This document shows, one piece after another, positions 12,306 through 58,865 of a stretch of DNA of 64,000 nucleotides. The number at the start of each line of letters is the position of its first letter. Position 1 is the first letter of the stretch. The stretch lies in contig OX485808.1 of NCBI GenBank assembly GCA_950295325.1, positions 39,390,527 through 39,454,526 of the forward strand, in the 5' to 3' direction. This DNA comes from Polytrichum commune (taxonomy: Eukaryota > Streptophyta > Polytrichopsida > Polytrichales > Polytrichaceae). Under the pieces are notes generated by a model. It saw only the letters and a program-made list of their open reading frames with translations, did not search any database and was not told where the DNA came from. A program made the position numbers and the translations under genes.

Positions 12306-12860
12306 TGATTTGGAAACGACTTTGTGTGCCCACATACAACTTTCTAGTTCTTTAGCAGTGATGCAATTCTCTAGTTCTCTAGTGCATTGATCCAATTCTC
12401 TAGCATGTTTGGGTTCCTTTTACGAGGTTTGTAACAATTCCCTGCCTTAAATTAAAGCCTCTTTTGCACGACTCAACATGATCGATAGTTTGTTTTGTTG
12501 TCCTACTTGAATCTGTACTGTAACACAATATTTTGCTACACCCAAACCAAATCAAAGCTTACATGATTGTTTACTCAGAGACTAAAAGTCAATGTTGAAC
12601 AAGATATTCCGAAAGTCAAAATTCTTGTGATTTAAGGTGCTAGTGCTACATGATAATACAAAAGCACACAATCTACTGAAGAATGTGTCTTCAAATCTAT
12701 TGGGTCATTGAAATCACCCTTGGCTTGTTACATTGACTGCTCTTGCATCTACCTTAGAACAAAACGAGTGTAGGAACAAATCCTCAATACATAATTCTAT
12801 ACATATTAGAATTAAAATATACTCAAACAAATCTAACAATGACATAGTAGTGTTGTGCCT
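12306..12860. repeat. Outer-end repeat of the left inverted arm
   Basis: This segment recurs in direct orientation at about 42959-44165 (split there by MITE B) and in reverse orientation, from 12485 onward, at about 58505-58865. Shared runs include ctttgtgtgcccacatac and ttgggtcattgaaatcac. It marks the outer boundary of the inverted duplication. Confidence 0.85.
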
Positions 12861-12989
12861 TTTGTTAGTGCCCATATTATTGCTACACCTTGGATGGAAT
12901 TGCACGAAACTCTCTGCATTCTCTTTCTAAACAAATTATGGTACTTACTTGCGTTTGTTTGTATTTATGCTATTGTTGTAAACGACATC

Positions 12990-13850
12990 ACCGTTGTCAT
13001 TGCATTTTGAAAAAAATGGTCAATTAGTGCCTAAACATGTAGGTTGTGTTTGTTATCCAATTTTACAAGATGAGCACATTTAATGGTTAGTAGTGAGGAT
13101 TGATGCAAATCACTGTAGAATCTCTCCATCGTTGGTTAATGAAGTTTTTCAATTCCCACGCCATGTATTTATTGGTTGTGTTTCAAAAGCCATTCAAAAT
13201 CAAGATGGATTTACTTTCAAGTTGATGCGCTATGAACCACATGATTATAACAATGAAGAGCATCTTAGAGGGCGTATAGAGTTGTCTCAAAAGTATTTAG
13301 AGTTTGGTGGCAGTATGGTTGATGTTGTGTGTGTGGATGAGGTTGGTTTCAATTTACATTTGACACGTTGATTTGGAAGGATTTGTCTAGGACAAAGATG
13401 CCAATGAATTTGTCCAATTCAAAGGGGTCACAATTTATCTTTGGTGGTTGCAGTTGGACATGAAGGTGTCATTGCACACGATGTCATACTTGGTGCCTAC
13501 AATACAAACAAGTTTTTCGAATTTGTTCACACCAAGGTCATTCCTAGCCTTGACAAAGAAAGGTTCATCCTCATGGACAATGTCCCATTTCACAAATCTC
13601 GTGAAATACAACAAGTTTTTATAGATGTTGGACACATCAACTTATGTTTGCCATCATATAGTTCAGTTTTCAATGCCACAAATTGGGTATTTGGACACAT
13701 CATAAACCATGTCCAATGAAATGATCTCCAAAATCATCGAACATCATTAGGTCACATTAATGATGATGTACAAGAAATCACTACAAACATGGTCCAAGGT
13801 TGGATAAGAGAGGTCAATCCAAATTTTGATAGAGCTAGTCATGGGGAGTG
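12990..13850 (+). pseudogene. Tc1/mariner-like (DDE_3-type) transposase, broken, left copy
   Basis: Frame 13093-13371 contains VDVVCVDEVGFNLH, which fits the first catalytic Asp. Frame 13441-13719 contains RFILMDNVPFHKS, the second Asp region. It is followed by LPSYSS then NATNWVFGHI, which corresponds to the Tc1/mariner block usually reading LPPYSP...NPIEN. The two frames are separated by stops around 13371-13440. At the position where family members carry the third acidic residue, this copy has Asn. Reading resumes to about 13850 (NMVQGWIREVNPNFDR) after further stops. The N-terminal DNA-binding region is fragmentary. The right arm holds the same gene with the same Asn. No terminal inverted repeats or TA duplications could be assigned. 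Confidence 0.7.
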
Positions 13851-14104
13851 ATTAGGAGAATCTCATACTTGATGTATCATTCTTTATAAAATTGGTTCAA
13901 AGTTCAAGTTAAATTGGTTGTCTATATAACGAACTTGGTTCTTGATTCCAATGAAATTGGCTAGTAAATCATGAAATTGAGTTTGCATTTCTATGATTTC
14001 ATCTTACCAAAGGAGTATGTAAACCTATGGTTTCATTTCCTATATTTTATAGGTATTTATAATTGCTCGTTGAAGAACAAATAATTCAAGTTCCAACATG
14101 TGAA

Positions 14105-14230
14105 GTTAATTACATGCTTTATTGACGGTTTCACTTTGAAAAGGAAGTCCTAATCAATTGCTTATGTATTCAATGGAAGTGAACATATATATTGGATTTT
14201 GGACCTTGAAGATGAAGTGCACTCAATATG
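14105..14230. repeat. Extra copy of foldback-arm sequence
   Basis: This block resembles 50185-50300, one arm of the right-arm foldback element (shared run gatgaagtgcactcaat with one mismatch). The right inverted arm has no equivalent at this point, so this is a left-arm-specific insertion or fragment. The following 14230-14530 is also left-specific and unrecognised. Confidence 0.6.
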
Positions 14231-15906
14231 GGTTATATGGAGAAGCAGCCTTCAATCCTAGTGAAGGACAATAAGCATGAAGAAAAAATTTGAGTCATGA
14301 AGGACAATCGTAGTGAAGGACAACACCATGGTATTGAAGAAATTTTGCTAAAAGACAATTGTTATTTTGTTGAAGTGGCGGACATCAAGGAAGAGAGGCG
14401 TTTGGGAAGAGATGTCGGGAACCGTTGCCCGAACTGCGTGGGTAGGGATGCGAAACATTTTAGGGGGTAGAGGCGGTGGTGGGTGCCACTAACATATGTC
14501 ATGCTGGACAGAGCTCGTTGGGGTCCCTTTAGCGTTTGCCCCACCAAAGTGCTTTCCGACGCTGAATAATGTTTTGTCCAAATCAAGGGGAGAATAAAAT
14601 GATGTTTTCAAAACCATGTACATTATTCAACCAGGTGGGCCAGTTCCTCGACCTTGGAATAGGTCAATTATATTCCATGAGCCCCTCGAACAAACTAGAA
14701 ATATTTTTTTACTGTTCATACATAAAGTTGAATGGAGTTATGCTCTTGGCATTATGCACATAAATTAGTGTTCACACTAGGAATATTCGCATGAAACATT
14801 GTTCATAACAGCGTTATTCTCTAAAATTGCTAGTAAAAGCCACACTAACATTGGAAAACTGGCATTATTCACAATATTCTTACTATTCAAAGCGATACTA
14901 TTCATTATTCGTACCGGTGTCAAGTTCTTCTTATTTTCTAAGTTTCTTTTTATGAAGATAAGAACAATGCCAGCTTAAGTTGGCAAGTGAATGCACAATG
15001 CGTGGTGGGTAATGTTATGACAAATTTGTCGACTTATGAACTTAATATAAAGTCCAATTGTGCTCTTTATGACAACTTTACAATGTGGTCCAAAACTCAT
15101 TTGTCTTCTCCCCATTGTGAAGAATCTATCTATTCAATTCCTCTACTAGGTTTCAAACTCCTATTTGAACACTTTATTGTCACCGGATGATTCCAATGAA
15201 CTCGGCACTTTCATTCGACTCTTGATGTCAAGGGCAATTCAACCTATTATTACCTAAACATATTTTATGATCAACCACTTAAATGTGGAAACAAACTTTA
15301 TTATGAAGAGTTAAGCAAAAAAGTATATTTATTTCAATAAAATTCAAGAAGATATGAAAGTCATAAAATTGAAGTTTCCAAGTTAGAACAACTTCATCAT
15401 TTGTGGTATTTAGTGTCATGTACATTATTGGTGAACAATCTAAACTAGATACCTAGAGGTCTAGTATTGTCACATCCAATGATTGTCAACATGTCACAAT
15501 TTGTCAACATAAGAGATCTTTTGAAGTGCATAACTATTCATGCTATGATGTTCAACATTGCACATTAAAGAAGATAATTTTATGTTTCAATATCCAAGAG
15601 AAAGATATTATTGAGCATATTAATGCCAAGTGTTATGTGTTTGCACTTATGGTCAACGTATTGACCGTTGTGTAACCTAGGCATAGACCTAATAATATCA
15701 TTGAAGATTGTATTGTTAATATATCAGTAAGCACACTAATGCCAAGTGTCACGAGGTTACGCTTGGTAATGTAGCATATGCCTCACAATAGGGTATTAAG
15801 GCACACTATTATGCGTTTGACACTAAATACCATAAAAGGGGTAGTGAAAACCTTGTTTTAAGAAACATTGCATGATAGGGTAGATGAGGAGTTCCATAGT
15901 CATATG

Positions 15907-15907
15907 G

Positions 15908-15939
<32 letters not shown>

Positions 15940-15975
15940 TATATATATATATATATTTGTATATGTACACACATG
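15907..15975. repeat. AC/TA compound microsatellite
   Basis: A run of about 15 ac repeats is followed by ta repeats. The right arm has the complementary TA/TG tract at 55034-55081 with different lengths. Confidence 0.95.
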
Positions 15976-16965
15976 AAGGTAAGCACATAGAAGTGCGCAA
16001 TCTTCGATCCTTGCAATCATTCGTTGTAAGTGAATTCACCACTTGTTGATATCATGGGAATGTGAGAGAGAACATGGGAGAACAAAAAGGGTATCACATG
16101 AAATATGGACCTTTATTCCACTATATGTCACATAAAGTATCCATAGGTTTATTATATCCCTATTCGATATGCTTTGTAGACCCAATAGTTCTAAAATTTA
16201 TAGGATCCCCTATTTATTAATGGTTGTGTGAAGATTTACAATCAATATATGATTGTAGCTTGCTAAATCTAGAACCCAAGTTGGGTGTCTTTCCTTGATA
16301 TATGCCTTGGCTTCCAATGTTGATAAGAATTTGGATGTTTTTTCACGATTCCCTTGATAATTTCACTTGCATTGGAACTAGTGGATCAAACTCTTTGTTA
16401 TGGAAAACACCAAATTTTGACTATATAATGTTTGAAAATAAAATTGAAATATGTTGAAAATTAAGTTATCATGACCTCTAGGTATATGATACTATAACAA
16501 TTCCGATAAGAATGAAAAAAATACTTAATTTATCCTTCAAATAATACTCATAAGTAAAGTTGCCAACTTTGTGTTTCATGCAAATGTTTCTTATACTGAT
16601 ATGTATAGTTTTGTTGATTTTTTCCTACAAATATGTGCATACAAGTATGTTCTAGGTCATCATGCAAGAATTATAATTTAATATGTTATTATGAGACTAC
16701 TTGTATGTCACTTTCAACCACTTGCAAATCCTGATAGATTTGCGTAGGTGTTAAAAAATGGCATATAGATATTCTAAAACACATGTTTTCTTCACTTTTC
16801 TTTCACTCACTTGATTCTTATACTAGTGTAATATAAGAACAACATTTCTATATCCTTAGAAGAATCACACCTATATTTAATAGTGGGTCAATTTCTAATT
16901 ACACCTCCAAATTTACATCGACTAGAGCACTTACTTGGTCCACTTTACCATGCTTGCACCCACAT
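15976..16965. other. Left-arm-specific ~1-kb AT-rich segment
   Basis: In the right arm the sequence passes from the microsatellite almost directly to the counterpart of about 16970 (tatatgtatgca-like runs), so this kilobase is present only in the left arm. No ORF or terminal repeat is seen. It is either an insertion here or a deletion in the right arm between TA-rich tracts. Confidence 0.5.
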
Positions 16966-17376
16966 GCTACATATATAGGTATGTATGCAAATATATGAAT
17001 GTACAAAGATATTATGTATGTACAAATAATAATATACTTATTCTAGAGGTGGTCAAAGTTTATTGACCACATGATGAGTGTCTCTCACAATGAGCTCAAA
17101 TAAAATTAGAAAACAAATCTAATATGGGGTGTTGCCCATAGTAGATACTAAACATGGTTGATATTTGCAATGGACAACACCCCGGGGATCAAAATTTGCT
17201 TCCTCTTTTAAGTTGGCGAGAGGGAATTATTGCATATGATAGTACCTCAGGCTCATTCGTCGAACATAGAACTGGGACTGTATGGCTAATTCATGTATAA
17301 TAACATTCACTAAACTAATTACGGGTGTTTGAAACTAATTCCGGTATCAAATTAACTATAGAAGTAATCTCTAGAT

Positions 17377-17490
17377 TGCATGTTATTTCATGGTTTTTAT
17401 TTTGGGTGAATGAGAGATACACTTATATGCAATAACTCCCTCTTGCCCTTCAAGCCTAAACACCCTTCCACTTTAAAATCCAATAAGATT
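17377..17490. repeat. Left copy of ~115-bp direct repeat bounding a 6.7-kb insertion
   Basis: Matches 24148-24262 in direct orientation, including tgaatgagag and ctccctcttgcccttcaag. The right arm has this sequence once, at about 54489-54605 in reverse. It is far longer than a normal target site duplication. Confidence 0.85.
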
Positions 17491-17639
17491 GTAATTTAGA
17501 TTTTGGTTACAAACAAACCCAAGGAAACACTCAGGGAAGACTCAAAATGTGATTTTTAGACCATTTAGGTGTCTAAGATAAGTTTTATTAAGATAATCAT
17601 AAAGTTACTGTTGCAACCCTTGCTAGCCCCCTCAACAAT

Positions 17640-18600
17640 CTTACCAATTTTCATTTCTAGCAAAGGTTACGAGCGCTAACCCTTCGCATTCCACCATGCT
17701 AATGGTTAGCTCCTCCTACCCCAGACCTTATAGTTCATAAGAGGGGAACCAACCCTCCTACTTTGCTTTCAGGACTCACCCCTCAATCGGTAACCAATCC
17801 TTAGATGTGGACTTCCATGGATCTTATGTTGATCATCGCATTGCCGGAGCAACACTATAACAACCCGAACCATACTAGGCAACTATGGCCTCACATTGGG
17901 CCAAAGCCCATGGAGGCCGTGCCGTTCGGCCTCGGGTGGGTGAGGCCACACCACCTCACCCATATAAGCCTCTAGCATTCTAAGCGGGGCCCCTACCCCA
18001 CCGTCAAGAGACCTTGTCTCTCTACCAAGAGTTGGGGCCAAGTAGACATTTTCCTTTAGCCGCTGGGCCTATAAGCCCCCAGCAGCTTCAGACCATCATA
18101 ACTTCCTTGTATGATGTCTGATGCTAATACGCAACCACTCCATCTTCATCTAAGCTTCACGTAGATGCCGATGGACTCCTCACTTGCCCCATTCAGGCAA
18201 GTATTGAGGAAGTTATGCCTGTTTGAACCTTGGCAGTCCTGGGAATCACTCCCAGGCACTGCTATACCAGGGCGCTGTCCCGGGACAGCGCCCCACTCAA
18301 TTTGGCATAACTTCTAGCTCACAGTGTCACACCTCCGATTGAGGTGTTCTTGAGCATTATGGAATCTACACGCCATAAGCTACGCATAGCTCATGGCCTT
18401 ACCCTCGTGCCTCCTAGTCTTCATGGGTGGGAGGCATTCCCAGCGCCCGGGGCCCTCACCCACACTAGGATCACTTGGGCCCTCTCACCAACGGCGCCAC
18501 AAGTCCCGGGTGTCACTCCAGGGTCCCCCTTGTGCCCATGGTGTTTCGGGCACTCCTCATGGAGAGGTGCGTGGCAGTTACTTCATATCATTTCAGGTTT
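17640..18600 (+). repeat. GC-rich interspersed repeat S, copy 1
   Basis: About 950 bp shared with 33850-34740 (same strand) and, in part, 31915-32190 (opposite strand). Diagnostic runs include ggggccaagtagacat, cctcctagtcttc and catgaggagtgcccgaaac on the opposite strand. Open frames at 18344-18614 are frames within this repeat. The nature of the repeat (solo LTR or other) is not known. Confidence 0.75.
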
Positions 18601-19409
18601 CAACTAACAATTAAGTGAGGATTTAGGGGATAAAGGCTTCAAAATCTCTCAATGTTAGTACATGCAGTTGTGAGAGCCACTCAACCTCACTTCATTTGTC
18701 TAGTCAATAATCTAGCAATGAGTTCATTTTAATTAAACCAAGTGTGGTGCACAAGCATAGCCATAGCCATAGTCAGTTGTCTTGCAGAAGTATTTCATTT
18801 TCATCTCTTTATCAAAGCCAAGGGCACTTTGGTGTAGTCAATAGTCTTGTATTAATTCATTTCATTTTAGTGTGACTTGAAATTGCAGTGCAGTCATCCT
18901 TTCAGGATTTTCCATCTTCTTTGATTAAATATAATTTTAGTTACACTCTCCGACAATCGTATCTTACGTGGTCTTGGCCAAGGTAATAATAATTCCCGTA
19001 ATTGCGACCATAAGCCATACCACATATTCATGTCAACGTATTCTTGCATGGTTCTTTATTGAATTAAATTTAGAGTTGCTTTGCATTCATAATATCGTCT
19101 TGCAACTTCTTTTTATCACGATTTATTCAATTTTTTGTCTCAAGAATATTGACTCGAATAAACATCGATCATTTCTTTTATTATTGACGAACTATTATTT
19201 TCAATTTTAAGTTACTATCCTTCCCGGTTCCTTCTGTCGAGGTCACCTTCAACCCTCAGCCTTAGACGGTGTAACCCGCTGCCGACCGGTTTACATAGAC
19301 ACTACACCTATCCAAATTAGCCAATTTATATCTTTTCAACTCGAAGGTGGTCTGATGCATAGTGTTCCTAATAGGATGTTTTCTCTTAGTGAAACTCTGA
19401 GGAGCAGGT

Positions 19410-19890
19410 GCCCTAGGTTTTCAAGTTTATGTTCCTTTAAAGCCTAATGTCAAGGTTAAGTGCATTTAGAGGAACTTCATTCTTGTATACAATATCTTTC
19501 ATGGTTTGGATGATTTAAAACCTTACGAGATGTTTATATCCTCAAGCATACTCTCTCACTAAATGCGACTCATGAGAGTTCTCTAGTTTCTCCAATATTC
19601 ATTTAAGAACTCGATACCATGTTATGTTGTGATAACATACTTGTATCTCTTTTATGTCCTCTTAGAATCCCTAAGGATTGGTTGCCTTAGATTTCCAAGT
19701 TTATGTTTCCCTAAAACTTAATGTCACGGTTAAGTGTTTTTAAAGTCCATTTCATATTCATGTATGTCCAACATTGCGGATATAACACTATCTTTCATGG
19801 TTTGAATGATTATCTAAACATTCCAATGAATACCCAAATTTAGTTATGAGGTAAGCATATTCCCTCACTAAATTCGATTCTTGGGAATGG
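19410..19890. repeat. Imperfect two-copy duplication, about 280-bp period
   Basis: The block beginning ctaggttttcaagtttatg near 19411 recurs, diverged, near 19690. Both copies share aatgtcaaggttaagtg (one mismatch) and ctttcatggtttg. No ORF. Confidence 0.7.
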
Positions 19891-20577
19891 GGTTGACTAC
19901 ACTTAAGTTTATGGAAACATTCTCAATCCATTAGAACTTAAATGCATCTTCTCACATTTGATCGTAATCTCGGCCTCAAAAGGTGAATGAATTATTTCTA
20001 CCAAGATTTCTCTTAGGAATCTCTTACGATAGGTCGTGATTAAATTTTCTTATTAAATTCCAAATATCCTAACTCTTCATTCCTATGAGGAGTTATGACA
20101 CGAAATCTTAGTGTAGGTATAATGGTGACAAAAGGTTGTAATCGCCTACTTTGCGGTTTTGCTTGTGTATGTAATCATTAGGTTTAGCTCTTATACCAAA
20201 TGTGATGGACAACACTTTAAGCCCGAAATTGCTTGAGTATGTGGACGATGACTCATCCTCTCCAGTGCTCAAGTGTTTGTACAAAATCTTTATTTCGATA
20301 TTCCAATGAGATAGCCTCTCTCGGGCTCCAAACAATGATGTTTCCTTATGAGTTTCCTCTTACAAAATCTTTCCTAAGTCCTTGAAGATTTCAACCTTAA
20401 TTAGCTCCACTTGATTGGCCTTTGTAAAGGTTTGGCCGTTCCTCAAGTTTCTTCTTGAGTCCATATGTATTTCCGATGACTTTTGTAAGTCTCTTTGTCT
20501 ATCTTGTAAATCTCACAAGTTTCGCTTAATTTCCTTTAAGCTTTATTGGCCTTTCATCGGCTTTGAATCCTAATTTC

Positions 20578-20830
20578 GGTTCGAGGTTCATGAGTCCTTT
20601 GTTTCCAAAGGGTTGCTCGCACGGTCTCTTTAAGCTATTAAGGTTCGAGGTTCACGAATCCTTTGGTCTCCAAAGGGTTGTTCGTACGGCCTCTTTAAGC
20701 TATTAAGGTTCGAGGTTCACGAATCCTTTGGTCTCCAAAGGGTTGTTCATACGGCCTCTTTAAGCTATTAAGGTTCGAGGTTCACGAATCCTTTGGTCTC
20801 CAAAGGGTTGTTCGTACGGCCTCTTTAAGA
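20578..20830. repeat. Four-copy tandem repeat, 64-65-bp unit
   Basis: Units start at 20578, 20642, 20707 and 20772, each beginning ggttcgaggttca and ending ctctttaagctattaa. Copies 2-4 are nearly identical; copy 1 is diverged, which suggests recent amplification. Each unit start resembles a pol III B box (GGTTCGA), but no A box is evident. Confidence 0.95.
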
Positions 20831-21099
20831 CACTTCACGTGTAGTGTTCCACGGCAAATGAAGTGTAATAGGGCCCTCAACTTGGCCTCTTTATATAGTG
20901 TTTTAAATCTACCATTTTTCTAATTTCCTCAAATATCAGTCTTGGCTATAAATATATATGTATCTAAAAATAGCCTGAATTCAAACGTCCTAATCTAAAT
21001 GCTATTAATCTACTACCGTTGATATGTTCTAACTAGGTACATATCTTTCGGTTGAGAGTTCATTCATCTACATCCATTGGTCTACTTTCTAACACGTGT

Positions 21100-21330
21100 C
21101 CTAATTTAAGTGCCTCTTCGACTCTCGGGTGGTTCCCGGCCGTTCTTGGCCCGTTCCCGCAGTCGTTCCTGAGTCTCGCCCGCTCTCGGCTTGTTCCCAA
21201 CTTGTTCTCAGCTCCCGGCTTGTTCCCACAGTCGTTCCCGAGTTTCCCCCGGGTCGTTCCTGGTACTCCTTCGTTCCCGGTGTCGGGTAGAGAGGGTTCC
21301 GCCTTGGGAAAGCGCTGGGCTTCTGGCTGC
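21100..21330. other. GC-rich island of gttcccg-type motifs
   Basis: Short imperfect repeats of gttcccg/cttgttccc in otherwise AT-rich DNA. A second, similar island is at 22380-22640. Overlapping open frames on both strands follow from the composition. No domain is recognised. Confidence 0.5.
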
Positions 21331-22649
21331 AACTAGATTTTATCGGACCCGTCGAATCTTCTGGTCTTCAATCGAATCTTCCGGTCTTCTAGTCTTCAAT
21401 TTCTTCTAATCTTCAACCTCTTTCCCGTCGACCTATCCTGTTGCGGCTCTATATGGATAAAGGGTAAGGGTAGTGTGATAAGAAACCACGGGCTTCGGAC
21501 GGGTAAAACGGGACGTCAGAACACGAGCTGACGTCCGAAAGATTGGCTCCTAAACTTTCAAACCCACGGTGACCAGCAATCGCACCTCACCAGTGGGAAC
21601 GACAGAAAACAACCTTGTGGGTGATTAATCCCACTTCGTTGTCACACAGGAAACAAATTACGATGCAGAAATGAAATGCAACTAGCCTCCAAAACCGGCT
21701 TGGAATCACACACACAAGAAAAAGACAACGTGCCACAAGCAACCACACATTTGAGTCTTGAAGCCTTCAATTCTTTAATCTGTCCGTCTTCTATGGTCGG
21801 TCGAAGTCTCAGCTCTTCTTTTAAGAACCAACAGACTTCCCTCCACTCAAACAAGCACAAATCTTGATTGCTAACTTCCAAAACAACAAGTGAGATCTCT
21901 CATGAATCACAAATCCCTCGTATTTTATTTCATATTCTTCTCAAAACAACTCACCCCGTGAGCTTCGAATCCACTTCTCTCTCTCAACAACTTCTCTCCC
22001 ACAATAATCACATCACCTCTTTCCTTCACCACCTCTCCCTATCCATGCGAGAGACAAAGTTCTCTCTTATCCTCATCACATGGCTTCTAATCACCCATTG
22101 GTCCAAAGTAACTCAAGATAACTAAAAGACAAAAATAAACTATGAGTAAATAAAAAGGTAATCTATTTCTATCATTTGGTAAAGGTAACTAAGAGTAACT
22201 ATGAGTAAACATAAAGGTAAGCAACTTCTATCCACTTCTATCCTTAGGTAATGATAACTAAAATAAACTATGAGTAAATAAAAAAAGTAATCTACTTCTA
22301 TTCTTTATTATTTTTCTCCAAGACCAAGACTCACAATGCAATATTAAATACGTGCACATCTATATAGTGTACGTATTTACATCACGACACCGGCCGTTCC
22401 CAGGCCGCTCCCGGGAGTTCCCCTCTTCCCGGCTCGTACTTAAGCGGCTCCCAGCTCCTTTGGACATGTGGCCATCTTCGGTGGTGGCCCCAAGTCCCAT
22501 TGCCTGCGGTCACGTCACCGTCTTCCCGTCTTCTCGCCAACGTCTCCTTCCTCTCCCGGGCCTGCAGCTACGAGCTTGCGTCTTCCTCTTCGGCGTTTCG
22601 CCTGGCACCGCTGCCGGTGCGGTGTGGTGCAAACTGACCACACACCTTC

Positions 22650-23690
22650 AACATATAATCATTGCTTACCAGGATGTCAACAATTGACTTTTTTTTGCTA
22701 CCTCCAACTCATTTCCCATCCTCGCCAGATGATGGTCTTGCTCCATTACCCTTTCATCGTCTCTAAAAGGTTAAGATGGTTGAATTTCAACTATTCATCG
22801 ACATTAAGACCATAGTCTTCAACATCAGAATTCCAACATACAATTTCACAACAACCACCAAGGAACCCCTCCTTGCAAATTTCACAACCTAATTTGGAAT
22901 TCAATCTCTACACGAAAATGTAGAGAGCCACAACTTATAATCCAGCAACATCACCTCAATGTAATTACTACAAGTGTCAGAGAATCGCCTCACAAATAAA
23001 TATTTCACTTATATGCAACATTATACAAACTGTATTTGATGAGTTGAATTCAACGTGGTTCACAGGCCAAGTAATCAATAGAGTCCGATATTAAAATATA
23101 GCAATCTAAGCCACTATTCACTAACCAAATCTCTCTCAGACCATGGTCGTTCAATCCATTCACATTTACAGTCATAATTTAATTACACGATTCAGTTTGG
23201 CGAGAGTTTGAAGTACCTTCAACTCAGAGTTCCATACATTGCTGAATTATCCATACAGGTGAGACATTTAGTCACGCTCGGGAATTCCAGTTTAATTACC
23301 CTCATTAGAACATGGCCTGACTTGGTTTTACATTGCAGAGAAATTCAATTCAACCCCAAGACAATGGCTTTTTCACCTTACGCTCTGGTTTTATTATATG
23401 ACCTACTATCAGTACTCAATCCCCTTTAACCAAGGCCTAATATCAATTTGCTTTAGTCCAATAATTCCTCCAGGTTTTCTCTTTTTCTCTTTCACACAGT
23501 AATTCTAGCCACAGTTACCCCTTATCAGACTGTTGCCTTGACTCATTGCAGTATTTAATTCATAATTTTTTAGGCTGAAATATTAACACTTTTATGTCAG
23601 ACATGCATCAAGGGAATCACTCCATCTTGATTCTACAATAAATTCAGAAAATTCAAGTAAAGATGTTTTAAAGATCCAGCTCAATTATCT
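22650..23690. other. Unrecognised part of the 6.7-kb insertion
   Basis: No gene, terminal repeat or known element is recognised. Its style (att- and caatt-rich, with repeated cagaccat) resembles 61.8-62.4 kb, but I could not align the two with confidence. Confidence 0.3.
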
Positions 23691-23692
23691 TG

Positions 23693-23772
23693 GATTCCAC
23701 TTTAATCTTTTTTTTTTTTTTGGGGGGGGGGGCAGAAGGCCAAACGGCCAGCGCCAAGATTCCACTTTAATC
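23693..23772 (-). mobile_element. Short SINE-like retroposon end, 15-bp target duplication
   Basis: The insert, 23708-23757, reads on the minus strand as ggcgctggccgtttggcc, ttctgcc, a C run and a poly-A tract. It is flanked by gattccactttaatc at 23693-23707 and 23758-23772. The body resembles the insertion at 26083-26156. A poly-A end plus long target duplication indicates L1-type retroposition of a short 3' fragment. Confidence 0.8.
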
Positions 23773-42443: not shown

Positions 42444-42449
42444 TGGTTG

Positions 42450-47758: not shown

Positions 47759-49020
47759 TAAGAAAACACTGTCTTCTTCTAATGGCTTTGGCCTGCATCA
47801 AAATCCACCTAGCTATAATAACATATATAATATGTGATGAAGACTGAAACTAGTCTGAAATCTAAGTTAGATGCAGGAGGAAGAAACAGAATTAACATTG
47901 ACAAGTGAGAGCCCATAAACCTTGAGGTAGACGTGCCTAATTCAACATAACAATAAACTAGATACCTAAATTTGAGTGGTATGTGGTTAGATGTGGATCT
48001 AAGAATGAACATCAAACAGAGATATATTTCAAAGAGATTGGATCACATACTCAAATATGTTAACCATTCTAGACTTAATTGTTAACATATTTGGGGGGAA
48101 CTTATATGACTACTTAATGAGCACAAGAATCTTCACTATGATAATGAAATAAGATGTTTGGGATATTAGCTTCAAAAATTATGAGGAAAATAGCTACGGG
48201 CCCGATTTGAGATTTTGGATTTGCTAATCATCTCACACTTGTCGCATGTTTCATATCTTTAAACTCGAAGTGGGTGCAGAGAGAGAAGTATCCCAATTAG
48301 GCACATCTACCTCACCCAGTTTTATGTCACGGACTTTTAGAATTTGAACACACTTTGTACACAGCTTTTAGTTGAACCAACATAAGACTTGCAAACGGCA
48401 GCTGCAGATCAGACGACAGATTGAAGAACATCTGCAGTGTGTGCATCTACTTCATGTCCAATGCTAACTTCACAAAATTGCCACTAGTCATATAACATGA
48501 GGTTGTTGGAAAATGCCAATCTGATCCAATATTAAGACATTCTATGAGAGACTAATACTCAACATTCTATGACAGATTGATAAACATATACAGTGTACAC
48601 ATTTGACTGGTCTAATGTCACGATAATTGCTCGAAAGTCATGTGAACCCCTTATCGTCTCAGAAAGATGTCAAATATTTCCCATACTAAGACATTCTATG
48701 AGCTACAAACTTGGAAAATATGCAATGATCTATGTATTCAGCTTGTGCTAATTTCACAATAGCTGCTGCAAGGCACATAATCTAAGGTTTCAGATTTAAG
48801 ATGTGAATCTCCAATACTAAGTTGGCATCTTAGCAACATGACAGATTCAGGAACAGATCTGCAGTGTGTATATTATTAAACTGGTGCTTGCTTTTAAATT
48901 TGCTGGAACTTGTCACGCAATATGAGTTTTCAGAAAGATGTCAATCTTGTCTGAAACTAAGACGTTCTATCACCTCATATAAGTGTACATCAGTTGAAGT
49001 TCACCGTTTATACTCACCGA
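47130..49020. repeat. Right-arm copies of the intron/upstream repeat and the upstream repeat cluster
   Basis: The segment duplicated between intron (about 47160-47370) and upstream region (about 47920-48310), and the degenerate tandem cluster (about 48420-49000), mirror the left arm. Their retention in both arms shows they predate the inverted duplication. Confidence 0.6.
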
Positions 49021-49228
49021 ATGTTGACGAAATATTGGAGCTGGTCGCACTGAGTCCGCACACACACTGATGACAAGATCAGATATCTGAATATCTGAGC
49101 CATCACATGATGACTTCCTTATATAATCCTCGAAACCACAGGCATAGTCCTCAGATTCTCATCAGTGATTCCAGGCATTGAAATTTTATGTGTCTGAAAG
49201 TCAACCTAGCCTGCAAGTCCTCATGACT

Positions 49229-50493
49229 CAATGATGGGGGTCGTTAAACCTCCGCTTACAAGCTTCTCCGGGTAGGTGGATGAGGGCGGGGCCAGCCCCA
49301 AGAAAGAAATCGAGATTCTCTGAACCCGACCGAAACATGTTGTCCGTCCCGCCCGACTTTGAAAAAATAATTGCCCTTGCACTCTAGAAGGTCGTTTATT
49401 CACGAATTCAATATTGAGTGCAATTCACTTTCAAGGCTCTTTCTCTCTCTCTCTCTCTCTAAGTGTGTGTACTTCCACTTAGTAAAGAAGCAAATAACTG
49501 GGATTTCATTCTGGAAGTGACACTGTCAATAAAGCATGTAATTAACTCACAAGTCAAAAACATTACAAAATCCTCATTAGCATTGATATTATAACTTTTG
49601 TGACTTACCATTTGAAGAGATCTTTGTCTTTGTAAACTGAAACTTAAATTAGTGTGTTCATTTTAGTATGTATATTTTATAGTAGTTTGGGTAATGTCTT
49701 CTACTTTCACAAGTGTTCATACGCATTCAAACTAATTAAGCATGATTGAATGAAATCAAGCCTAGCTAACTGTAAATGAGCGCAAGGCCTAAGTTTCTAC
49801 AAGCATTCGTACACATTTGAGCTAAATAAGCCTGATTAAGTGCAAGTAAGCACAGTCGACCTAATTAAGCTTAATGAAGCCTAAAGAAGTATAATTAAGC
49901 ACATCGATTCTCATTTCTGAATTTATACCATAATTAATTCAAGTAAGCACATATCTATATTAATTAGGCTTGGTTACATTTAATCACGCTTAATTAGTTT
50001 GATTGTGTATGGATATTTGTGAAAGTAGAAGGCAATGCCTAAGCTACTATAAAATATACATACTAAAATCAGCACACTAATTTAAGTTTCATTTTAGAAT
50101 GACAAAAACCTCGTCAAATGGTAAGTCACAAAAGTTATAACATCAATTCTAACGAAGATTGTCTAATGTTTTAGACTTCTGAGTTAATTACTTACTTTAT
50201 TGACAATTTCACTTCCGGAATAAAATCCCAATCAATTGCTTCTTTACAAAGTGGAACTTCATATATAGGATTTTGAACCTTGAAAATGAAGTGCACTCAA
50301 TCTGCATTGGAATTTTTGGATAAATGGCCTTCACAATTACCAAGGCAATGGTTTTTTCAAAGTCAAACAGGACGGACATACGTTTTCGGTCAAGTCCAAA
50401 AAGGATTGATTTTTTTTCTAGGATGCTGCCCCTGCCCATATCCACCTCCCCCGAAAAGCTCGTAGGGGGTAGGTTTAACAAACCCCCTCAGTG
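49229..50493. mobile_element. Foldback element: 1.26-kb palindrome
   Basis: The arm starting CAATGATGGGGGTCGTTAAACC at 49229 is matched, reversed and diverged, by an arm ending at 50493 that reads CACTGAGGGGGTTTGTTAAACC on the opposite strand. Similarity extends some 500-600 bp into each arm (shared runs: cataacttttgtgacttac, ttagtatgtatattttata), with the centre near 49860. CA-starting ends resemble the MITEs here, but the flanks tcatgact and acatgtga agree poorly as an 8-bp duplication. Only about 160 bp of the left end is present in the left inverted arm (to 26201). A (CT)n tract lies at 49441-49460. No ORF. Confidence 0.75.
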
Positions 50494-50534
50494 ACATGTG
50501 ATTCGTGGGTAGCAAGCAACACTTTCACACCTTT

Positions 50535-50770
50535 TATAGCCCATTAGCTAGTTGGGCTAGCCCATATTTTTGAGGCCTTAATCTTGCCATACCTAGGCTA
50601 GCCCATATTTTCTAAGGCCTCGATCTAGCCATAGCTGGGCTAGCCCATATTTTTTGAGGCCTCGATCTAGCCATAGCTGGGCTAGGCCATATTTTGGGAG
50701 GCCTCGATCTAGCCATAGTTGGGCTAGCCCATTTTTTTCGGGTACCGTTTTTAGCCATATAGCTGGACTA
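50535..50770. repeat. Tandem array, ~45-bp unit with nested palindrome
   Basis: About five units with core gctgggctagcccatattt followed by gaggcctcgatctagccat. The unit contains the palindromic gggctagccc. Right-arm-specific. Confidence 0.9.
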
Positions 50771-51340
50771 GCTGACCTAATAAATTAATTCATGTAGCTC
50801 ATATAATGAATTCAAGGAGACATTGTCTCATCAATACAATTATATTTCATTTCAGTCAAAATCACTCATCGTCATCAATATCTAAAACATGTTGCTCATC
50901 ATTCTCTACCAACAAATTGTCATCATCCTCTATCTGCAACTCCTCATCGAAAATAGGGCGTTTGGGAATGTGATTCTTCTTCCAATCGGAATTATCCAAC
51001 AAGATTAACTTTTCAGGATCGTATGGCATTAGATGTTTGTTCAACTTCAACATCATTGATGCCTCTGCAAATCCTCCCCCAAGCGATGATCTCTTTGGAG
51101 TAATGACATCATTTAGACTGCCAAAGTCACATTCTAGCCCACCCGACCCATCTTTTTAGAGGAATGTAGAGAATATAGCCCACTTTGAGTAAAGACATAT
51201 CAAAAGATGTAAACATGTAACCGGTTGCACTTGGATATGGACAGATGATCTCAACCCTAAAAATTTTATGGTAGTGGTAGGGATGACATGGCTGGGCCTT
51301 AGCTTGAGCCAATTGAGTTACATGACTTATCTTTAGCTAG
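50771..51340. other. Segment between the two 45-bp arrays
   Basis: It includes a minus-strand frame at 50862-51056, an acidic 64-codon peptide (EELQIEDDDNLLVENDEQ) of no recognised family, possibly a transposase tail. About 51145-51265 resembles the interior of MITE C (ttttagaggaat, aacatgtaaccggttg). Confidence 0.4.
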
Positions 51341-51344
51341 CTAA

Positions 51345-51495
51345 TAACTAGCTGGGCTAGCCCATATTTTTTGAGGCCTCGATCTAGCCATAGCTGGACT
51401 AGCCCATATTTTTTGAGAATTGTTTTCAGCCATAACTGTTAGCTATTAGGTCAGCCGCTAGCCCAAAAAGTCCGTGGGCTAGCAGCTGTACAAGG
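51345..51495. repeat. Second array of the ~45-bp unit
   Basis: About two and a half units in the same orientation as the first array, followed by a run containing attaggtcagc that is inverted relative to agctgacctaat at 50768-50779. The two arrays may be the ends of one element. Confidence 0.8.
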
Positions 51496-51635
51496 TCTGC
51501 ACACTTTGATGACTATTTCTGTGCTTTGGCTCACTTCAATTAGATATTCCTTTTCTGACATATACAATTACCCTGGGCTTCACATCGGAGCATGCAAAAC
51601 ATGCTTACGATGCCTTCCCAGCTCTTTGTGGCATC

Positions 51636-52062
51636 ATTCGTGTGCTAAGTTGGGCCAAGACAGTTCGTACAGAATTTATTTATTTGTTTATGCATCTATT
51701 TATTTGTATAAATCAGTGCCACCTAGATTTGCTATATTAGCCACATTCGTGTGCTAAGTTGGGCCAAGACAGTTCGTACAGAATTTATTTATTTGTTTAT
51801 TCATCTATTTATTTGTATAAATCAGTGCCACCTAGATTTGCTATATTATGCATGGATATGGCTGAATGACATCCCAATGAGGACACTCAAGGCCGGTTTA
51901 CATCATTCGTGTGCTAAGTTGGGCCAAGACAGTTCGTACAGAATTTATTTATTTGTTTATTCATCTATTTATTTGTATAAATCAGTGCCACCTAGATTTG
52001 CTATGTTATGCATGGATATGGCTGAATGACATCCCAATGAGGACACTCAAGGCCGGTTTACA
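51636..52062. repeat. Triplicated segment, 109- and 160-bp periods
   Basis: Copies begin (attcgtgtgctaagttggg) at 51636, 51745 and 51905. Copies 2 and 3 are longer and end in the first 12 bases of the neighbouring inverted-repeat element. The left arm has a single copy (about 25800-25945 reversed). Confidence 0.95.
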
Positions 52063-52987
52063 CCATGGACCATTAGGTCAGACCTATTAAGATGGCGTTT
52101 TTCCATGGTCTGACTTAATGGTCCAACATCCATGGTCCGATTTCCTAAAAAATTAATTTACAAAGTTTTTGGGTCCCTCACTAGGTGTAAACCGAATGTG
52201 GAACAAGAGGAATGACCATGCACCAAAACGTGAATGTGCTGATTTTTTTCATATATGTCCAAAAAGGGCATTTTTGAAAAAACTTCAAGTTTGGATATTC
52301 CGTTGACTTTTCTTGGGCCTCATTTGTCTTCATTTCTTGTTAAATGTGTTGAAGATGTGGTTTGCAAATCTTCTCATAACATTTTTTACAAAACGATGAG
52401 CGATTAGATTTGTACATGTGACATGTACTTTGTGTTGTACATTGAGCATTATTTGCAACCCACTTCACCATGTGTACTCAAATTCTTGAGGTCTAGATGT
52501 CCCACATTGTTTGGTGAAACATTTAGAAGTTGGTTTAAGGGGTAGGGCATGGAAGAAATGGTATGTCTCATGGGCTATGATATGATCAAGGCAAATAGAG
52601 GGTAGACTTGCTTCTCAAGATTCATTACATCACATAGATGTTGAAAAGTGTGCTTTGTGAGCCTTACCTAGTGGGAAGAGTTGTATATAAAGGGCCCCAA
52701 AAAGAATTCATTAGAAATTTAATATAAGAGTATTTCTTTGTCATGGGCCCCTGCCTTTTTCCTACCGTACCACCTCTTTTGCCTTTCTCACTGCAAAAAC
52801 CGTTGGACCACGTCAGTGGATTATGCAGGCCTTAGAATATGTTTTCAGGGGACCTCAACCTCCATGGTTACTCTAACATTTTTTCCTTCATGTAAACCGA
52901 AGTGGTCCTAGGACAAGCTCAACAACCAATCAATGCTATGATATGGCCCTAGGACGACTTCATGGTCCATGGTAAACCGGCCCTCAA
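52046..52987. mobile_element. 932-bp inverted-repeat element with 5-bp target duplication
   Basis: The element is 52051-52982. Ends are GGCCGGTTTACACCATGG and, reversed, GGCCGGTTTACCATGG, about 21 bp with a 2-base gap. Flanks are ctcaa at 52046-52050 and 52983-52987. The left arm at about 25763-25770 has gagtgttgagtg on the plus strand with no insertion, so the empty site is directly visible. No transposase is encoded. Superfamily unclear: 5 bp does not fit hAT (8) or Tc1/mariner (TA). Confidence 0.88.
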
Positions 52988-55031
52988 CACTGCACTTAGA
53001 GTCAAGTTCCATGGAGCATATAAGACACCAAGGTCCAAAATATTCTTTGGGCTTCACGGGTGACAACAAGATCATTAAGGTTCGATAAAGGCTTAAAGCC
53101 TTAAGAAAATTCAACTCCCCCTTTTTCTTTCTTCCTCCTTTAGTATAAGGGTCCTAGAATTTCAAGGTCCATTGACCACACCATTGGCGTGGTTGAAGTT
53201 ACCCATGAAATGAAGAGTTTTGATTGAAAGAAAACCTAGAGGTTATATGAAAATGGGATGGACCCTACTATGCGAATGGGAGAAAATGATGAGAAAGTGC
53301 ACATTGCACACTTTCTCAACCCGTTCTTGTGGAAAGACCTCAAGATCTTGTGTTGCAACAAATTGATGTGATGCAATGTGACTTTGTACCCAAGCTCCAC
53401 ACATACATACTTAATTTCGAGTTTATAAGTTGTTTGCATGGATTGGGGGGGGGGGTCTACGATGGAAAGGAGCATTTGCATACATATAGTGACCCGCAAA
53501 ATTGAGTCACAAAATTCAAGTATTTTAGTTCATGGTCCATAGCTTGACGATGAGGCAATGAAACTTAACTTTGTAAATACAAAAGTTGTGATATGTGATG
53601 TATAGTGTCATCCCAAAAACCTTAAATCAAAAAGCATGTAAGGTTTGGGAGTAAATGGATTTCAAAGTTCACTATCCACAAGACTTAGTTATAGTCTTGT
53701 TTGTGCATATAGATTGAAACTTGTATATACTTTTTTTTTTTCAAATGACAATCATTCTAGCATATACTAGTGTGTCTTTCTATACCATTTAGTAACCTTC
53801 ACCATCAACAAATTGTAAAAAGTTGATATACGTACACTAATAGACTAAAATTATCAATATTGTGCAATGAAATGGAGTGTGGACTTCAAAATGCTTTTAA
53901 TATTTGAGCATATGGTATGGTTAGGACCCCCTATAGAGCAACAATACAACACTAAATATTGTATTTAGTGTCATATGGTATTGTATGTCGTTGTGGTAAC
54001 TTTTCTAGTGATGCTTCTTGTAAATAAGTTTACAAGTATTGTCATCTCTACTTACTTTTAGTGCATCCATTGCCCAAAACCCCACCTACTCCATACTCCA
54101 CGGAGTCGTTGATGTGTAGAGGCATGCATATTCTTGCTCGCCCACTCTTTTGTGGCAGAATGCATGAAATCCATGCCAATTATTGAAACAAAGTTTGGTG
54201 TATTCTACAACTTAACATTTTGTAATGAATTATTATCATGGATGATTGTAATTTGGATGAAGAATCACTTTGTAAGTGATAGTAATTGTAACATTATAAT
54301 TTAAAATGCCCAAAGCTTTTAGAAGGAGTGGCAAATACTGTTGGGTTTACATCTAATGTTGGTGACACTACACATGCAATTTACAATTAGTATTGAGGAA
54401 GGCGAATAGCATTGGTGACACTATATGCAATATTTAGTGTACCACAAAAAATTTCAAAAATAAAACCATTTCTAATCTAATTCAATAGTTGCATCTTATT
54501 GGATTTTAAAGTGGAAGGGTGCTTAGACTTGAAGGGCAAGAGGGAGTTCTTGCATACAAGTGTACCTCTCATTCACCGAACATAAAAATCATGAAACAAC
54601 ATGTAGTCCAGAGATTACTTTTATAGTTGATTTGACACCGGAATCAGTTTCAAACACCCGTAATTAGTGTAGTGAAAGTTATTATACATGAATTAGCCAT
54701 AAACATATAGGAGTCCAAGTTTTGTGTTCGACGAATGAGCCTGAGGTACTATCATATGCAATAATTCCCTCTCACCAACTTAAAAGAGGAAGCAAATTTT
54801 CATCTCCGGGTGTTGCCCATTCCAAATATCAACCATCTCTAGTACCTATTGTGGGCAACGCCCTATATTAAATTTGTTTCACAACTACATTTGAGCTCAT
54901 TATTAGAGACACACATCATCCGATCAATGAACTTTGACCAAATCTAGAATAAGTATATGATTATATGTATATACATATATCTTTGTACTATCATATATTT
55001 GCATACATACATATATATGTAGTATGTATAT

Positions 55032-55033
<2 letters not shown>

Positions 55034-55062
<29 letters not shown>

Positions 55063-55081
55063 CGTGTGTGTGTGTGTGTGT
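55034..55081. repeat. TA/TG compound microsatellite
   Basis: Right-arm counterpart of 15907-15975. Sequence beyond it jumps to the counterpart of about 16970. Confidence 0.95.
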
Positions 55082-56408
55082 TCTATTACTATGGAACTCC
55101 TCATCTATCCTATCATGCAACCTTTCTTAAAACAAGGTTTTCACTACACCTTTATGGTATTTAGTGTCAGACGCATAATAGTGTGCCTTAATACCCTATT
55201 ATGAGGCATATCCTACGCTACACTAATGGCCAACAACTTGACCAGTACTTAGCGTAACCTCGTGACGCTTGGTGTTAGTGTGCTTAATGATATATTGGCA
55301 ATAGATTCCTCAATAACATTATAAGGTCTATGCCTAGGTTACACAACGGTCAATACGTTGACCATAAGTGTAAACACTTGACACTTGGCATTAATATGCT
55401 CAATAATATCTTTGTTTTTTGCGTACTGAAACGTAAAACTATCTTCTTTAATGTTTAATGTTGAACATCATACCATAAATAGGTATGCACTTCAAAGAGT
55501 TACTTATGTTGACAAATTTTGACATGTTGACAATCACTAGACATGACAATACTAGACCTCTGGGAATGTGACACTAAATACCACAAATGGTGAAGTTGTT
55601 TTTACTTGGAAACTTCAATTTTATGGCTTTCATGTCTTCTTGAATTTTGTTCAAATTCTTTTTGCTTAAATCTTCATTATATAGTCTTTTTCCACATTTA
55701 AGTGGTTGGTCATAAAATACGTTCAAGTAATAGTGGGTTGAATTGCCCTTGACATCAAGAGTCGAATAGAAGTTTGAAAGCTAGTACAGGTGAATAGATA
55801 TATTCTTCACAATGGGGAGAAGACAAATGAGTTTTCGACCACATTGTCAAGTTGTCATGAAGAGCACAATTGGACTTTATATTAAGTTCATAAGTCAACA
55901 AATCTGTCATAACATTACCCACTAAGCATCGTGCATTCACTTGCCAACTTAAGCCGGCATTGTTCTTATCTTCGTAGAAAGAAATTAGAAAATAGGAAGA
56001 ACTTGACGCCGGTACGAATAATGAATAGTATCTCTTTGAATAATAAGAATATTATGAATAATGTCAAATTTTCAATGCTAGTGCGGTTATTAAAAATAAT
56101 CATAGGGAATAATACTGATATGAACAATGTTTCATGCAAATATTCTTGGTAGGAACAATTATTTATGTGCATAGTACCAAGAGCATAACTCCACCCAGTT
56201 GTATGCATGAATAATAAACAATTTTTCATAGTTTTTTTGAGGGGCCCATGGAATAGAGTTGACATATTCCAAGGTCGAGGAGCTGACCCACATGGCTAAA
56301 TAATGTATTGGGTTTTGAAAGCTTCATTTATTGTCCCCTTGATTTGGGAAACATTAGTCAACGTTGGAACCCACTTTGGTGGCCCCAAGAATATGTGAGA
56401 GGCTATTC

Positions 56409-57006
56409 ATGTCACTGAGGTGCTGAGAATGGGGGTGTGGTTTCGTGGGCAGACCACATCGAAGCCATCCATTCACAACGCCCCATCATATGGTCTACGA
56501 AACTGCTTGGGTAGCCCGAAAAAAATATTCAATGGATAAAAAATCAATGCTTGCAAGATGAGGGGGTTGATTGTTCATCGGGTCGTTTGGGGAACTCCAT
56601 TGAGAACTTTGGGAACCTTCAATATCCCACACAAATGCTCTCATACAACTGGTTAAATTTCATTTCATTTCAAGGTTGGTCATGAAAAGGGCTTGGAGTT
56701 GATGGCTAGTACCCTTGGTTTAACATTTAGGAAGGAAGAAGTAGGAGTTCAATTCCCTTCGTTGGCATCACATGTCTCAGAAGTCTTTGTAATGAAGGAT
56801 TGACTTTGAAATTTTTTATCCTAGATTCATGAGTGGATGGAGGTGGAGATTTCATCTAGTGTGATGTTTTTCAAGCTCTACCAAGGGGAAGAGAAGCCAA
56901 AATATGGGGCACTATAGAAACCTTTAGATCTCTCAGACTGCAATCGACAACTAAGATCTTCTTAGCTTACACCACAAGGGAGTCGTTCACATCACCTCAG
57001 TGACAT
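56409..57006. mobile_element. Right-arm-specific ~600-bp segment bounded by 14-bp perfect inverted repeats
   Basis: ATGTCACTGAGGTG at 56409-56422 and its exact complement at 56993-57006. The ends resemble the right end of the foldback element (CATGTCACTGAGG). A B-box-like agttcaattcc lies at about 56747. No clear target duplication was found, so the true ends may differ. No coding region recognised. Confidence 0.6.
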
Positions 57007-57539
57007 AGAAGGGCTATGCTAGGATGAACCATGGGATAGTCCCCATATTCAGACCAACACATTGAAGCCCCTTGACCCTTGACATTGCATTTTGCTTTAA
57101 GTATGGTTTAGGCTCTGCTATATGGCAATGGAACTCAATTCCATTGTTGAATAATGTTATGGAATCTTAACTATTGCATGTTGGAACTTGGATTATTTGT
57201 CCTTCAAGGACCAATTATAAATATCTATAAAATAAAGAAAATGAAACCACAAGTTTACATACTCCTTTGGTAAGATGAAATCATAGAAGTGAAAACTCAA
57301 TTTCATGATTTACTAACCAATTTCATTGGAATCAAGAACCAAGTTCATTATATAGACAACCAATTGACTTGTACTTTCAACCGATTCCACTACATGTTTT
57401 GAACAATTTCATGATTTGGGACCCATATTCACAACTCACAAAATCAATTTCATGAATTATATAATTTTATTTCACAAAGAATGATATATCAACTATAAGA
57501 TTCTCCTAATTGTTGCCCATGATTAGCTCTAGCAAAATT

Positions 57540-58330
57540 TGGATTGACCTCTCTTACCCAACGTTGGACCATGTCTGCAATGATTTCTTTTACATCATCA
57601 TTAATGTGACCTAATGATGTTTGCTGATTTTTGAGGTCATTTCAATGGACATGGCTTTTGATGTGTCCAAACATCCAATTTGTAGCATTGGAAAATGAAC
57701 TATATGATGGCAAACATAAGTTGATGTGTCCAACATCTTTAAAAACTTCTTGCATTTCACGAGATTTGTGAAATGGGACACTGTCCATGAGGATGAACCT
57801 TTGTTTATCAAGGCTAGGAATGACCTTGGTCTGAACAAATTCAAAGAACTTGTTTGTATTGTAGGCACCAAGTGTGACATCATGTGCAATGACACCTTCA
57901 TGACCAACTGCAACCACCAAAGATAAATTGTGAGCCCTTTGAGTTGGACAAATTCATTGGCATCTTTGCCCTAGCTGAATCCTTCCAAATCGACTTGTCA
58001 AATGTAAATTGAAACCAACCTCATCCATGTACACAACATCAACCATATTGCCTCCAAACTCTAAATACTTTTGAGACCACTCTATACGCCCTCTAAAATG
58101 CTCTTCATTGTTATAATCATTGGCTTCATAGGGCATCAACTTGAAGGTAAATCCATCTTGATTTCAAATGGCTTTTGAATTACATCCGATAGATATATAG
58201 CGTGGGAATTGAAAAACTTCATTAAGCTACGATGGAGAGATTCTATGATGATTTGCATCAATCCTCTCTATTAATCATTAAACGTGCTCATCTTGTAAAA
58301 TTGGATAACGAACACAACCTGCATGTTTGG
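57540..58330 (-). pseudogene. Tc1/mariner-like transposase, broken, right copy
   Basis: Mirror of the left-arm transposase. Frames 57954-58139 (VDVVYMDEVGFNLH) and 57642-57920 (RFILMDSVPFHKS, then SNATNWMFGHIK) carry the first two Asp regions, with Asn at the third catalytic position. The second Asp region reads MDS where the left copy reads MDN. Stops separate the frames. The shared Asn shows the change predates the duplication. Confidence 0.7.
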
Positions 58331-58504
58331 GCACTAATTGACCATTTGAAAAAAAATGCAATGAAAATGGTAGTATCGTTTACAACAATAACATAAATAC
58401 AAACAAACACAAGTAAGTATCATAATTTGTGAAGAAAGAAAATGTGGAGGATTTGATGCAATTCCATCTAAGGTGTAGCAATAATATGGGCACTAACAAA
58501 AGGC

Positions 58505-58865
58505 ACAACACTACTATGTCATTGTTAGATTTGTTTGAGTAGTATTAATTCTAAGTCACATAGAATTATGTATTGAGGATTTGTTCCTACACTCTTTCTG
58601 TTTTAAAGTAGATGCAAGAGCAGTCAATGTAACAAGAAAAGGGAATTTCAATGACCCAATAGAAGACACATTCTTCAGTAGATCGTGTGCTTTTCTATTA
58701 TCATGTAGCACCTGGATCACAAGAATTTTGACTTTTGCAACGTTTTGTTCAACATTAACTTTTAGTCTCTGAATAAACAATCACGTAAGCTCTGATTTGG
58801 TTTGGGTGTAGCAAAATATTGTGTTATAGTACACATTCAAGCAGGACGACAAAACAAAGTATAAC
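58505..58865. repeat. Outer-end repeat of the right arm
   Basis: Reverse copy of about 12485-12850. Similarity stops near 58865, marking the outer end of the arm. Confidence 0.8.

Follow-up and report, generated by a model that had tools for sequence, protein, structure and literature searches.

We analysed a stretch of 64,000 nucleotides (hereafter the window) from the moss Polytrichum commune, contig OX485808.1 of assembly GCA_950295325.1, positions 39,390,527 to 39,454,526 of the forward strand. The window carries two collinear copies of one segment in opposite orientation, termed arms A and B, each with one gene related to vanadium haloperoxidases (VHPO-like), and the spacer between the arms holds an RPL18 gene. 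A mariner-like element, M, is present in three partial copies (T1, T2 and T3), and four dispersed repeats (Q, P, V and R) lie at the junctions. The features are listed below in window coordinates.

11,147–12,312, plus strand: left part of repeat Q (Q-left), with its junction to T1 at about 12,305 (comparison with other Q loci).
12,305–30,896, plus strand: arm A, consisting of the T1 remnant, the core and the VHPO-like gene, and ending inside repeat V (self-BLAST, block alignments, V copies).
12,305–14,016, plus strand: T1, the mariner-like (DDE_3) element of arm A without its left ~360 bp (profile match, element alignment).
17,490–24,146, plus strand: insertion specific to arm A, with high-copy repeats, between 116-bp direct duplicates (self-comparison).
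26,153–27,000, plus strand: most similar arm segment and candidate gene-conversion tract (17/848 differences), with its partner within 47,146–49,278 on the minus strand.
27,673–30,477, plus strand: VHPO-like gene of arm A (coding sequence 27,673–27,909 and 29,317–30,477, 465 amino acids).
30,736–31,571, plus strand: repeat V, running through the inner edge of arm A (comparison with fetched V copies).
38,521–40,400, minus strand: RPL18 gene in the spacer, approximate limits (PF00861 matches, frames).
41,538–42,345, plus strand: right part of repeat Q (Q-right), in the orientation of Q-left (comparison with Q loci).
42,430–42,599, plus strand: repeat P, between Q-right and T2 (seven fetched copies).
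42,602–44,168, plus strand: T2, the third copy, with the left ~0.9 kb of the element including the left terminal repeat, at the junction of the spacer and arm B (element alignment).
44,269–58,862, minus strand: arm B, the inverted copy, which leaves repeat V at about 44,269 and ends at a repeat terminus at 58,862/58,863 (self-BLAST, V and R copies).
44,711–47,758, minus strand: VHPO-like gene of arm B (coding sequence 47,758–47,522 and 45,871–44,711, 465 amino acids).
57,261–58,862, minus strand: T3, the arm B partner of T1, without its left ~540 bp and abutting repeat R (profile match, element alignment).
58,863–64,000, plus strand: repeat R, from the outer edge of arm B, matching the genomic copy L030 to about 65,518, beyond the window (L030 match).

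Self-BLAST of the window on both strands produced an ordered, mirrored chain of minus-strand matches from 12,485/58,862 to 30,896/44,288, several blocks of which had E = 0. This chain confirms the inverted duplication proposed in the first-pass annotation, whose named landmark pairs sit on it to within about 0.3 kb and whose 13.4-kb spacer corresponds to 30,897–44,287 (13,391 bp). Its 10.7-kb core is near the alignable total, with seven block alignments giving 91.8% identity between the arms over 9,680 columns, a count that omits unalignable, inserted or repeat-rich stretches between the blocks, among others 14,110–14,540 (which fails to align with arm B), 15,956–16,961, 17,490–24,262 and 25,773–26,152. 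Arm A is 18.4 kb and arm B 14.6 kb long, mainly because of arm-specific insertions: the extra sequence lies at about 15,956–16,961 and 17,490–24,146 in arm A, and at about 49,316–51,547 and 52,051–52,982 in arm B. A genome search with 26,153–30,896 found full-length matches only in the two arms, the remaining matches being dispersed repeats inside the query (best 40 of 9,173 candidates scored), and a search with 26,153–27,118 returned two candidates, both scored, which were the two arms. The outer flanks of the arms had no match to each other. The arms are thus two collinear copies in opposite orientation rather than a dispersed repeat, and the locus is an old local inverted segmental duplication, of a known and ordinary kind, with more junctions than the first-pass annotation had seen.

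The 116-bp duplicates flanking the 6.66-kb insertion of arm A (17,374–17,489 and 24,147–24,262) differ at 8 of 116 bases and have a single counterpart in arm B, to which the right duplicate is nearer (5 differences) than the left one (11); for a target site duplication, 116 bp would be long. The window contains two high-copy repeats that appear young. One, at about 21,276–22,406 in this insertion, is 93–99% identical to the listed full-length genomic copies (best 40 of 6,283 candidates scored), and the other, at 35,243–36,196 in the spacer, has listed full-length copies mostly at 95–98% identity and one at 86%. Arm B contains tandem arrays at 50,549–50,738 (42-bp unit) and 51,635–52,066 (109/160-bp units), the 160-bp unit matching sequence near 25.8 kb in arm A. 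A piece of ~70 bp in arm A (26,079–26,149), absent from the arm B alignment, recurs with 83% identity 41 kb further to the right, at 66,941–67,009, beyond the window. At the left end of the window, a 241-bp unit forms two tandem copies that are 95% alike (163–645). Rfam and tRNA scans of the window gave no matches.

Could the two arms be joined haplotypes or another misassembly? We consider such an artefact highly improbable. The arms differ more than alleles do: their outer parts are 10–15% diverged, they carry different multi-kilobase insertions, and their genes show a ratio of nonsynonymous to synonymous divergence (dN/dS) of 0.24. Their outer flanks do not match each other, one arm edge is present in three copies (T1, T2 and T3), and 406.1 of the 407.8 Mb of this 64-contig assembly (window on contig C6) lie in seven contigs. 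The earlier argument that differing insertions and a protein difference of about 7% (32 of 465 positions, 6.9%) speak against a simple artefact is borne out, as judged from the sequence, by the level and unevenness of the divergence, the dN/dS and the three-copy edge.

The three copies of M carry some of the history of the locus. A DDE_3 transposase match (PF13358) was found in T1 (1.5e-11) and T3 (1.3e-11), whereas T2 is without that part and is split by a nested insert of ~670 bp (about 43,287–43,956). Terminal inverted repeats were recognised in three of four fetched family copies and also between the left end of T2 and the right ends of T1 and T3, and TA flanks were visible by eye at most element ends, except at T2 and the left end of copy L012. 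By its transposase domain, terminal repeats and TA flanks, M is a Tc1/mariner-like element. A piece of ~0.37 kb is present in T1, T2 and T3 alike, and the spacer stretch 42,961–44,168 is accordingly a further copy of the arm's edge. T2 and T3 match T1 at 87–93%; among the other listed copies (best 40 of 63 candidates scored), matches to the left part of T1 reach at most 82% over spans of at least 190 bp, and short pieces of 97–144 bp reach up to 91%. The numbers of differences in the 353 shared columns are nearly equal (T1–T2, 31; T1–T3, 32; T2–T3, 29), fitting one event or events close in time.

At the inner edge of arm A, repeat V provides the orientation. In all four fetched V copies, the parts on either side of the edge are arranged and oriented as in arm A, and L053 tracks arm A base for base across the edge, while L054 and L056 have extra bases there. 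Arm B follows V to about 44,269, its inner break, and then leaves it. Because V continues in arm A and is cut in arm B, arm A appears native and arm B derived at this edge; most likely, arm A continues naturally into the spacer and its inner edge is no breakpoint. We therefore dropped position 30,896, across which V continues, as a candidate breakpoint. The first-pass description of arms around a housekeeping gene needs a qualification: the RPL18 gene does lie in the spacer, which seems contiguous with arm A through V. The gene itself is likely intact, as had been claimed: PF00861 is matched by two exon-sized frames, and by eye we also see a first frame resembling a transit peptide and a short basic frame. 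Within the window and 30 kb of flanking sequence, all matches to the spacer at 30,897–41,537 are to dispersed repeats. A second RPL18-like locus in the same genome (G000, C4:29481640-29482624) has two adjacent exon matches, and the profile is divided between them at nearly the same point as in the RPL18 gene of the window.

Repeats Q and P orient the other junctions. Q-left lies directly against T1 and Q-right ahead of T2, an arrangement whose order and orientation recur at four of five other fetched Q loci (L028, L029, L050 and L051). The two Q parts are separated by 1,211 bp in L028 and 1,068 bp in L029, and these middles resemble each other; this 1.07–1.2-kb middle was not found in the window or its flanks. 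Since Q-left and Q-right have the same orientation across arm A and the spacer, we set aside a model in which the spacer is inverted and the arms are its staggered flanking duplicates. T2 sits within the final bases of P, where all seven fetched P copies stop matching. Thus T2 retains a left context (Q-right, P and the left end of the element), whereas T1 abuts Q-left without it. Visual inspection of the junctions near 12,305 and 41,537 showed at most a few shared bases. In genome queries made of joined flanks, matches crossed either join by no more than a few bases, with a single exception of 24 bases (C1:26556631, query 277–750); these queries revealed repeats Q, V and R.

The outer edge of arm B has a different character. 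The terminus of R, a dispersed repeat, is sharp and lies near (T)AACACTATATTCG; alignments of the window copy and 12 others start at the same bases, their left flanks differ, and the stretch 59,850–64,153 has no match to L030. As the end of T3 at 58,862 coincides with this terminus, its candidacy as an inversion breakpoint is weakened. The same edge could be the trace of alternative transposition by transposon termini, by which Class II elements can make direct duplications in maize (PMC3744419), and the common start of the 13 R copies would suit such an origin. We regard it as very unlikely: neither a target site duplication nor the other end of R was found, and the edge is also explained if R simply inserted there and the sequence beyond it was lost. 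The suggestion of the first-pass annotation that a whole segment had been transposed gained no support; in the self-comparisons we saw no terminal repeats flanking the arms as a single unit, although the outer edge of arm B is a repeat terminus.

Copies and junctions are observed, and order and mechanism are inferred. The ancestral order would be Q, P, M, core, V and the RPL18 region. In the reading we favour, to which we give about an even chance, the sequence arrangement arose by replication-based serial template switching of the fold-back type with a templated block of 2.6 kb. DNA synthesis would have passed RPL18 to about 41,537 and switched back to the right part of Q; Q-right, P and M would then have been copied over ~2.6 kb, to ~0.9 kb inside the element, giving T2. 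A further switch to the opposite strand inside V would have led to backward copying of the core and M, producing arm B. The left context of arm A may have been lost in this event or deleted later. Afterwards, the arms would have acquired different repeats, with both genes kept under purifying selection and arm-to-arm conversion probably keeping the upstream region of the gene near-identical.

Serial template switching has a parallel in the human DUP-TRP/INV-DUP rearrangements (duplication–inverted triplication–duplication) and in microhomology-mediated break-induced replication (MMBIR) (PMC4352052): duplicated and triplicated pieces coexist, one copy is inverted, and the two junctions examined by eye have short homology. 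In DUP-TRP/INV-DUP, the triplicated part is inverted between duplicated parts, whereas only ~0.4 kb is triplicated here and the order is T1 plus, T2 plus, T3 minus, which differs from the defining order of that class.

The first-pass annotation had also named fold-back duplication, which is compatible with the arms but incomplete, since T2 (42,602–44,168) lies as a third copy in direct orientation between the spacer and the inverted arm and calls for an additional template switch at the minimum, or for a direct-duplication step of its own. A plain fold-back with a single-copy spacer, in which T2 came from an independent insertion of an M-family element, such as a local hop, seems unlikely to us. 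The 13.4-kb spacer falls inside the range of 766–70,466 bp given for sequenced human fold-back duplications (PMC3907307), the M family is dispersed, with at least 47 matches (best 40 of 63 candidates scored), and M-family DNA occurs near another Q copy (L052). However, T2 is far closer to T1 than the other long listed matches are, it ends at the arm B junction, and it follows Q-right while Q-left abuts T1. The locus resembles those human duplications with disomic spacers in having an inverted copy with a kilobase-sized spacer between; unlike them, as they are described there, it is interstitial and old, has a direct-orientation block at the junction and shows no terminal deletion (PMC3907307). 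At the junction of the spacer and the inverted copy, where a fold-back would place short inverted homology, T2 and V are separated by ~100 bp without any other match in the window.

A stepwise origin is the main alternative, though we consider it less likely. It would begin with a direct tandem duplication of ~30 kb and a deletion of ~2.5 kb at the left of copy 1, followed by an inversion of M, core and V of the second copy through staggered breaks. The inversion would leave part of M (at least 368 bp) duplicated, oppositely oriented, at its two breakpoints, and the second RPL18 region would have to have disappeared. T2 and T3 indeed overlap in M and together reach both element ends, and an overlap inverted at the two ends of a flipped segment is the mark described for Drosophila inversions (PMC5080602). 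Outgroup sites also favour the grouping of T2 with T3 slightly, but are too few to decide. About four events would have to be close in time because T1, T2 and T3 are nearly equidistant, and this pathway needs more steps than template switching and the disappearance of a second RPL18 region. In the sequence to the right, followed for 20 kb past the end of the window, neither V nor RPL18 had any match; spacer matches in it were confined to 33,960–34,209, a dispersed repeat that also resembles the insertion of arm A. The missing left part of T3 was likewise not found at E 1e-6 in the 20 kb right of the window's end. Compared with the Drosophila staggered-break inversions, the locus shares an inverted duplicate of what would be the breakpoint region at both ends of the flipped segment, and differs in requiring an earlier direct duplication and in having one end hidden by a repeat (PMC5080602).

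Several observations weigh against serial template switching from the proposed ancestral order, which rests on repeat fragments. The V copy L055 crosses the edge in one BLAST match, but its base alignment resembles L054 and L056 rather than arm A, and the unmatched ~100 bp in arm B intervene between T2 and V. L052 has Q-right without Q-left in 5.5 kb, and an M-family piece lies 3.2 kb from its Q-right, so that Q beside M is not unique to this locus. The former adjacency of the T2 flank and the core rests on four bases, TATG after T1 and T3 compared with the P ends, which read GTTATG in three of seven copies; none of the seven P copies continues into the core, and no empty site joining the T2 flank and the core was found among them. 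The R terminus at 58,862/58,863 probably hides the original outer end of arm B. Finally, shared derived sites for T2+T3, T1+T2 and T1+T3 number 4, 1 and 1 with L017 as the outgroup and 5, 0 and 3 with L019, with 7 ambiguous.

Each arm contains one two-exon gene of 465 codons with a GT-AG intron at an identical position and in an identical frame. Both copies match PF22778 (VCPO second helical-bundle domain) at 31 and 39.6 bits against a cut-off of 27, and the arm B protein matches five solved sequences of the family, annotated as vanadium haloperoxidase, NapH1 or NapH3, with E values up to 0.01. Nonsynonymous divergence between the arms is 0.033 and synonymous divergence 0.140, and both copies appear intact and, judged by the dN/dS, under purifying selection. 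Other loci of this family in the genome have 34–58% identity. The classical vanadium haloperoxidase motif with the catalytic histidine is PSGH. At this site arm A has PSGS and arm B PSGA, and the five fetched paralogues whose frames cover it have PSGT (four) or PSLT (one), so that the histidine is missing in all seven copies read (the two arms and five paralogues among loci L003–L008). With the motif histidine absent, the two arm proteins are putative haloperoxidases. By eye, the N-terminus looks like a signal peptide. A search for prokaryotic relatives, made with a single protein query that reaches close relatives only, gave 39 pattern-matching stretches, none confirmed by tblastn. Judged by titles, the literature searched contained no study of vanadium haloperoxidases in mosses, nor was this locus found there.

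Divergence along the arms is uneven. Kimura two-parameter (K2P) distances are 0.10–0.15 in the outer blocks and 0.020 at 26,153–27,000, which has 17/848 differences compared with 153/1,478 at 24,263–25,772 in the block alignments (Fisher p = 6e-16). Further values are 0.070 at 27,001–27,633, 0.062 in the VHPO-like intron, and 0.031 and 0.077 in the two parts of exon 2. The longest identical run spans 149 columns; when the differing sites were permuted 2,000 times, the 95th percentile was 112. No stop-to-stop frame of at least 80 codons lies inside 26,153–27,000. Arm-to-arm gene conversion is the likelier cause of its conservation, for which constraint on non-coding DNA could also account. Conversion has precedents, since the high similarity of tandem genes in the moss Physcomitrella has been ascribed to it (PMC3045890) and palindromes of the willow W chromosome show it between arms in a plant (PMC7023750). 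As in the willow palindromes, the inverted arms here include a stretch of higher identity than the rest; unlike them, they are smaller and more diverged, with conversion inferred from one sequence only (PMC7023750). The combined account is put forward as tentative: one round of serial template switching, legible in the repeat fragments, would have produced an interstitial palindrome-like structure in a land plant, and its arms would later have exchanged sequence by conversion centred upstream of a histidine-less haloperoxidase-like pair.

Though ordinary in kind, the locus, apparently shaped by a rearrangement with several breaks among transposons, has an unusually readable history. It illustrates that the order of steps in an old rearrangement can be traced in part from dispersed repeats, even where no outgroup genome is at hand. 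Gene conversion between the arms of a plant duplication also becomes testable here. In this moss, a haloperoxidase-like gene has been doubled, and both copies have apparently been kept by selection.

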